From assembly GCF_910592395.1 (NCBI RefSeq), contig NC_088319.1, positions 11,844,001-11,908,000 of the forward strand: 64,000 bases of DNA, given 5' to 3'. The first letter of the stretch is position 1, and the number at the start of each line of letters is the position of its first letter. Source of the stretch: Lineus longissimus (lineage: Eukaryota > Nemertea > Pilidiophora > Heteronemertea > Lineidae). Below the pieces are notes generated by a model, which was not told the DNA's origin, made no database searches, and was given only the letters and a program-made list of their open reading frames with translations. A program made the position numbers and the translations under genes. Positions 35,079 through 61,426 of this stretch are shown one piece after another.

Positions 35079-35143
35079 ATGGAGGGCAAATACAGGACGG
35101 AATTCGACAACGACACGAACAGTAGCACTGTAGAGATTGCAGG
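35079..35143 (+). CDS. NEP-B alternative first exon 1A
   Basis: An ATG opens 21 codons ([20 protein letters not shown], Ala) plus two bases, then a GTAAGC donor. It is acidic and polar, as expected of the cytoplasmic tail of a type II protein. Phase 2 and length 65 nt match exon 1B, and both restore the frame of the membrane-anchor exon at 43407. An intron of about 8.3 kb would follow. Confidence 0.65.

Positions 35144-61426: not shown

Follow-up and report, generated by a model that had tools for sequence, protein, structure and literature searches.

The stretch of DNA analysed here, 64,000 nucleotides that we refer to as the window, was placed on chromosome 12 of the nemertean Lineus longissimus, for which the assembly report gives 391 Mb in total and 17.98 Mb for chromosome 12 (PMC8593623). 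Its central feature is a gene of the M13 (neprilysin) peptidase family whose nearest protein is RefSeq "membrane metallo-endopeptidase-like 1 isoform X4 [Lineus longissimus]" (MMEL1-like, P0002; hereafter RefSeq X4). All 771 of 771 residues of RefSeq X4 are identical to the path that joins exon 1a, a 42-nt cassette, an upstream acceptor of exon 3, exon 14b and exon 18a, and because this spliced model equals RefSeq X4, the borders of the constant exons are confirmed by an independent annotation. RefSeq X4 carries both Pfam domains (PF05649 at 401.5 bits and PF01431 at 248.3 bits, full-length profiles) and belongs to a 90% cluster of 11 member sequences, one contig.

The membrane helix and most of the ectodomain are encoded by exons 2-13 (43407..51202, + strand), whose constant members all have borders matching RefSeq X4: exons 2-5 (43407-43543, 44500-44562, 44989-45234, 45780-45982), exons 6-9 (47286-47465, 48231-48317, 48566-48699, 48901-48994) and exons 10-13 (49417-49545, 49839-50015, 50369-50531, 51151-51202). 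The same holds for constant exons 15-17 (55585-55715, 56111-56176, 56455-56553, +), which contain ENIADNGG, and for constant exon 19 (61327..61426, +), which holds the stop codon. For exon 3, RefSeq X4 uses a second acceptor that lies 3 nt further upstream, so that the exon starts at 44497. An earlier note on this DNA had called all splice sites intact, which is right for the AG and GT of every exon-14 and exon-18 copy and needs amending for the donor after exon 2 (intron start 43544), which is GC, not GT, at a border confirmed by RefSeq X4. The intron between exons 6 and 7 contains a tandem repeat of ~61 nt, made of two 31-nt halves (47886-48217).

The gene offers alternative beginnings. Exon 1a (35079..35143, +), 65 nt long, supplies the start codon and cytoplasmic tail in RefSeq X4, which also uses a 42-nt cassette exon within the tail, exon 1x (36548..36589, +). 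A second 65-nt stretch, exon 1b (39017..39081, +), is a candidate alternative first exon on the basis of its sequence and open frame. It had been paired with 1a as two interchangeable copies of one first exon, and that pairing has to be dropped: the two are unrelated in sequence, with only 19% amino-acid and 46% nucleotide identity, and the amino-acid figure rules out duplicated homologous exons, so that, judged by sequence, 1a and 1b would be better called alternative starts than an exon array. The cassette sits between 1a and 1b and is thus usable by 1a transcripts only. With three N-termini, two exon-14 copies and five exon-18 copies, the number of possible proteins is 30 (3 x 2 x 5), not the up to 20 enzymes counted when the cassette had been missed, and the number of catalytic domains is only 10. 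In endothelin-converting enzyme 1, another M13 peptidase, alternative first exons change only the cytoplasmic tail, and by analogy the choice of tail here (1a, 1a plus cassette, or 1b) probably sets trafficking. To our knowledge, endothelin-converting enzyme 1 has no exon copies in its catalytic domain.

Exon sets 14 and 18

At two positions the gene carries homologous exons in tandem, matched in length and phase and each with intact splice borders: two copies of exon 14 and five of exon 18. The zinc-helix exon (68 nt) is present as 14a (51817..51884, +), which keeps HEITH and has Val579 (human neprilysin numbering), and 14b (53415..53482, +), which has Met579 and is the copy used in RefSeq X4. 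The pocket exon (77 nt) is present as 18a (56864..56940, +; I692, W693, I713, N714), the copy used in RefSeq X4; 18b (57187..57263, +; L692, S693, I713, N714), a recent duplicate of 18a that may be degenerate; 18c (57626..57702, +; D692, F693, P713, S714), the most divergent copy; 18d (58676..58752, +; V692, W693, P713, G714); and 18e (59781..59857, +; I692, W693, V713, G714). Copies 14a, 18c, 18d and 18e are identified by homology and AG/GT borders. On rechecking the coordinates, the previously reported exon positions and lengths (65/65, 68/68 and 77 x 5 nt) were all correct. A tblastn search of the protein against the window showed that exons 14 and 18 are the only parts of this gene present in more than one piece, chance-level matches aside.

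We compared the exon-18 copies with background using a 26-column profile of 201 distinct family segments, which includes 18d and, via P0002, 18a, and so flatters the scores of those two. The scan covered both strands of ~252 kb, comprising the window and 20 further stretches, at a threshold of 4 bits, with M13 loci on contigs C4, C7 and C11 covered by the family search only. Ten places scored at least 4 bits: the five exon-18 copies (18a 61.7, 18b 45.8, 18c 26.9, 18d 61.6 and 18e 41.8 bits), the upstream paralog described below (45.3 bits), and one place each in four other M13 loci, L025, L031, L033 and L034 (35.2 to 57.7 bits). AG stands at the expected start in 10/10 of these places and GT at the expected end in 8/10. 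No exon-18-like place reached 4 bits in L017-L024, L026-L030, L032, L035 or L036, some of which are partial genes, and among the scanned M13 loci more than one exon-18-like piece occurs only in this gene. Both exon-14 copies are also far above background and have AG/GT borders. Scored with a weight matrix built from the constant exons, several of which score no higher themselves, the exon-14 and exon-18 copies lie at the 80th-93rd percentile of all GT in the window for donors and at the 82nd-99th percentile of all AG for acceptors.

The reading frame distinguishes sharply between taking one copy per set and any other choice. All 20 of the one-of-each combinations are open and give 756 residues in the original model, which lacks the cassette, in agreement with the 756-residue enzyme first proposed. 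Every one of the 27 sets of 0, 2, 3, 4 or 5 exon-18 copies, tried in their genomic order together with 1a and 14b, runs into a premature stop, as does inclusion of both exon-14 copies or of neither. In the latter two cases the stop precedes the last junction by 418 or 342 nt, making such messages typical decay targets. In the 0- and 2-copy sets of exon 18 the reading frame ends 28-43 nt upstream of that junction or inside the final exon, and decay is therefore probably no help against these exon-18 errors.

Pocket residues and the age of the copies

By alignment, exon 14 corresponds to residues 571-592 of human neprilysin and exon 18 to residues 692-717. A modelling paper places Ile558, Phe563, Met579, Val692, Trp693, Val580 and Arg717 in the S1' pocket (PMC6060874), and five of the seven residues listed there fall, again by alignment, in exons 14 and 18. 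A crystallographic paper describes how Trp693 shifts into the room that the adjacent Gly714 leaves (PMC4908401). An engineering study of human neprilysin found in its first screen that G714K produced the largest single-mutant change of specificity and D709K the second largest, and judged G399V, a residue outside exons 14 and 18, more important for specificity than G714K (PMC4121237).

The exon-18 copies differ at several of these positions. We assessed conservation with 240 family segments, of which 233 gapless and 199 distinct ones remained after removal of P0002 and the window. Cys694 (99% in the family) and the catalytic His711 (100%) and Arg717 (100%) are kept in all five copies; together with HExxH in both 14a and 14b and ENIAD in exon 16, the M13 signature is thus present whichever copies are joined. 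Trp693 (90% in the family) reads W, S, F, W, W from 18a to 18e, leaving 18b with Ser in its place. In the same order, the residues are I, I, P, P, V at Pro713 (92%), N, N, S, G, G at Gly714 (55%) and I, L, D, V, I at position 692. The two exon-14 copies differ at only 4 of 22 residues, namely 579 (Val in 14a, Met in 14b), 571 (Phe/Ser), 581 (Val/Ile) and 592 (Glu/Gln). Read through the human structure, the exon-18 set is one in which the predicted chemistry is conserved and the predicted pocket walls are variable. A structural model of the RefSeq isoform (14b/18a) has a mean pLDDT of 90.6, a helix at residues 50-78, and an unordered tail and short linker, and when searched against the PDB its top match is neprilysin (1dmt, rmsd 1.3, 44% identity).

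The divergence among 18a/18b, 18d and 18e is old and constrained. Their dN values are 0.47 (a-d), 0.39 (a-e), 0.52 (b-d), 0.45 (b-e) and 0.37 (d-e), with synonymous sites among a/b, d and e saturated or nearly so (dS 2.46 for a-e and 1.91 for b-e). Copy 18c stands further away (dN 0.98-1.51 against the other copies, dS saturated) and by these values is under weaker constraint than a/b, d and e. The remaining pairs are closer: 14a and 14b have dN 0.125 and dS 1.11, and 18a and 18b have dN 0.073 and dS 0.127, the latter pair being a recent tandem duplication that includes the intron (89.6% over 260 columns). We also simulated neutral evolution of one copy until nucleotide identity had fallen to the value observed, with 5000 runs per pair. 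An open frame together with the observed amino-acid identity was reached in 0, 0, 0, 0, 0.02, 0.08, 0.18, 0.26 and 0.94% of neutral runs for nine of the ten exon-18 pairs. For the a-b pair 48% of neutral runs match the observation, and this pair carries no selection signal. Copy 18b, and possibly 18c, may on these sequence grounds be non-functional.

Proposed alternative splicing of the substrate pocket

Taken together, the frame logic, the intact splice borders, the old and constrained divergence, and the way exons 14 and 18 map onto the S1' pocket support interchangeable active-site exons. We think it probable that this is one membrane-anchored M13 gene whose messages each take a single exon-14 copy out of two and a single exon-18 copy out of five, altering specificity. 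One copy per set would be spliced in, with misjoined copies yielding broken proteins; the chosen copies would line the S1' pocket and its neighbours around constant catalytic residues; and each choice would shift which substrate residues the enzyme prefers beyond the cleavage site. A different peptide preference per form is what we infer from human neprilysin, and the use of 14a and 18b-e, like exclusive splicing itself, is suggested by the sequence. Across the copies, we expect use of 14a, 14b, 18a, 18d and 18e, while 18c is probably used and use of 18b is doubtful. The interchangeable active-site exons of the earlier note accordingly stand as regards frames, borders, old divergence and position at S1', with two deductions: 18b has no selection signal, and 1a plus cassette plus 14b plus 18a is the only path seen in an annotated protein, one of the ten catalytic combinations. 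The more ambitious proposal, in which an old array lets one gene make as many as ten catalytic domains (30 proteins counting the tails), regulated choice at both exon positions reshaping the S1' pocket and the peptidase thereby adjusting its own substrate range, seems to us evenly balanced between right and wrong.

The extra copies could instead be relics that are rarely or never spliced in, leaving essentially one catalytic domain (14b with 18a), and it is in keeping with this that those two copies alone appear in the annotated protein, that 18b has no signal of selection and 18c is very divergent, and that zinc-helix exon repeats in three paralog loci look non-functional. A relic of such age should look random, and for this reason we disfavour such an account: synonymous sites among a/b, d and e are saturated, yet frames, borders, length, Cys694, His711 and Arg717 have all been kept, and no non-M13 place in the ~252 kb scanned reached 4 bits. 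We consider relics improbable. Equally, the copies might serve mainly as an off switch, in which joining or skipping them gives frame-broken messages and the pocket differences are minor. The stops that follow both or neither exon 14 suit such a role well; those in the 0- and 2-copy exon-18 sets do not, being too near the last junction, or in the last exon, for decay to be likely, and a switch needs no five copies, nor would it account for variation at Trp693, Pro713 and Gly714 with the catalytic residues fixed. We rate a switch as distinctly improbable.

We hold it highly improbable that the copies represent several genes in tandem or arise from assembly errors. A second M13 gene does lie just upstream (its 3' part is at 262-2766 of the window), M13 loci are clustered elsewhere on the contig, and 18a and 18b are alike enough to warrant a check; against this, between the copies tblastn detects other M13 exons only as chance-level matches, the other copies diverge far too much for a haplotype duplication, and RefSeq annotates a single gene across the region. 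Our preferred reading therefore remains one gene with copies used one at a time. How exclusivity would be enforced is constrained by spacing, since the introns between copies (246 to 1028 nt for exon 18, 1530 nt for exon 14) are too long for crowding to do so. Dscam-type logic, as invoked previously, fits the layout; the best energy for docking-selector pairing of the Dscam kind around the exon-18 array in this one species (-24.4 kcal/mol, in a comparison that can miss weak pairing) was no better than those of five shuffled sets (-22.0 to -25.0).

Peptide signals are terminated by neprilysins. If the substrate-reading pocket of one is exchanged by splicing, a single gene would be retunable per tissue without new genes. 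The exon chosen alters what the enzyme accepts in mammalian UGT1A, through its first exons, and in CYP4F3, both of which differ from the ribbon-worm gene in varying one position only and in being non-peptidases. Human neprilysin (MME) and MMEL1 share the fold (1dmt) and catalytic residues of the ribbon-worm protein, and we know of no exon-14 or exon-18 copies in either. The closest parallels are insect serpins, Manduca serpin-1 and Pteromalus PpSerpin-1, in which tandem exon copies close to the 3' end, one per message, encode the partner-recognition loop; PpSerpin-1 has 21 C-terminal forms, with alternative reactive-loop exons and isoforms that differ in target (PMC10513286). Those proteins are inhibitors, whereas the ribbon-worm gene would vary a peptidase's own substrate pocket, and at two exon positions. 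Arthropod Dscam1 similarly combines alternative-exon arrays at several positions of one gene (PMC9417601), but it is an adhesion protein with thousands of forms, compared with at most ten predicted catalytic domains, and no docking-selector pairing above shuffled sequence, here. Among the titles and abstract openings listed for the open literature, with most subscription journals outside the search, we found no precedent for an M13 gene with such exon arrays; a paper that brings up both neprilysin and mutually exclusive exons counts classes of splicing and mentions the peptidase separately, and the accessible text of a survey of human duplicated exons contains neither "peptidase" nor "protease" (PMC9741552). 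The class of mechanism is thus known from insect serpins; what looks new is that it would act, at two positions, on the pocket of the peptidase itself, and if true this would extend the serpin-1 principle from inhibitor to enzyme. The array would also amount to natural versions of the segment that engineers mutated to retarget human neprilysin (PMC4121237), making rules of specificity directly testable.

Paralogs, other species and neighbouring features

Since synonymous sites have saturated between copies a/b, d and e, an old origin is expected for the array, which should be common to at least the heteronemerteans. Isoforms X2 and X4 of Tubulanus polymorphus (Palaeonemertea) have two N-termini and an identical exon-18 segment, which is closest to 18d (18/26 identical), and the Lingula segment ends in HSINRFR, as in 18a. 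These likenesses, like those of the N-termini given below, are hints only, and 26 residues cannot prove that the copies are old. No exon array was found in Tubulanus X2/X4 or Lingula, in a comparison based on 90%-identity clusters that would hide one, and a short-fragment protein search returned seven proteins, none named as nemertean and five unnamed or generic. Among the first exons, 1a resembles the N-terminus of Tubulanus X4 (shuffle P 0.0065) and that of Lingula (0/2000), and 1b resembles the start of the Lingula protein (P 0.005), all within nine comparisons, uncorrected.

The upstream M13 paralog lies in tandem with the gene and continues upstream from its 3' part into L030. It has single exon-14-like (1023) and exon-18-like (2295) pieces, with Arg in place of Trp693. 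On contig C12, near 2.12, 2.08 and 1.75 Mb, the M13 paralog loci L011/L021, L012/L020 and L013/L017 contain 4 to 9 zinc-helix-exon units of 116-120 nt. We rejected these as mutually exclusive arrays, the number of units differing by locus. A base-by-base reading of L021 showed copy 1 fused to exon 13, followed by units of 116 or 120 nt that lack AG at the expected place and in most cases have an in-frame TAG just upstream; judged by sequence, the units resemble a tandem repeat rather than exons that could be spliced in. In a further M13 locus, L036 6799 (contig C8, near 1.764 Mb), the zinc motif reads HELIN, with the second His missing, and the product is, from this motif, likely to be without activity.

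Outside the peptidase genes, the window contains two near-identical single-exon GPCR genes (16629-17690 and 21706-22782; the first was scanned and matches Pfam Srw / 7tm_1), which sit in duplicated stretches 96-100% alike and ~5.1-5.6 kb apart. Between them lies a reverse-transcriptase fragment (RVT_1, 76 bits, 18346-18921) that is probably a retroelement remnant.
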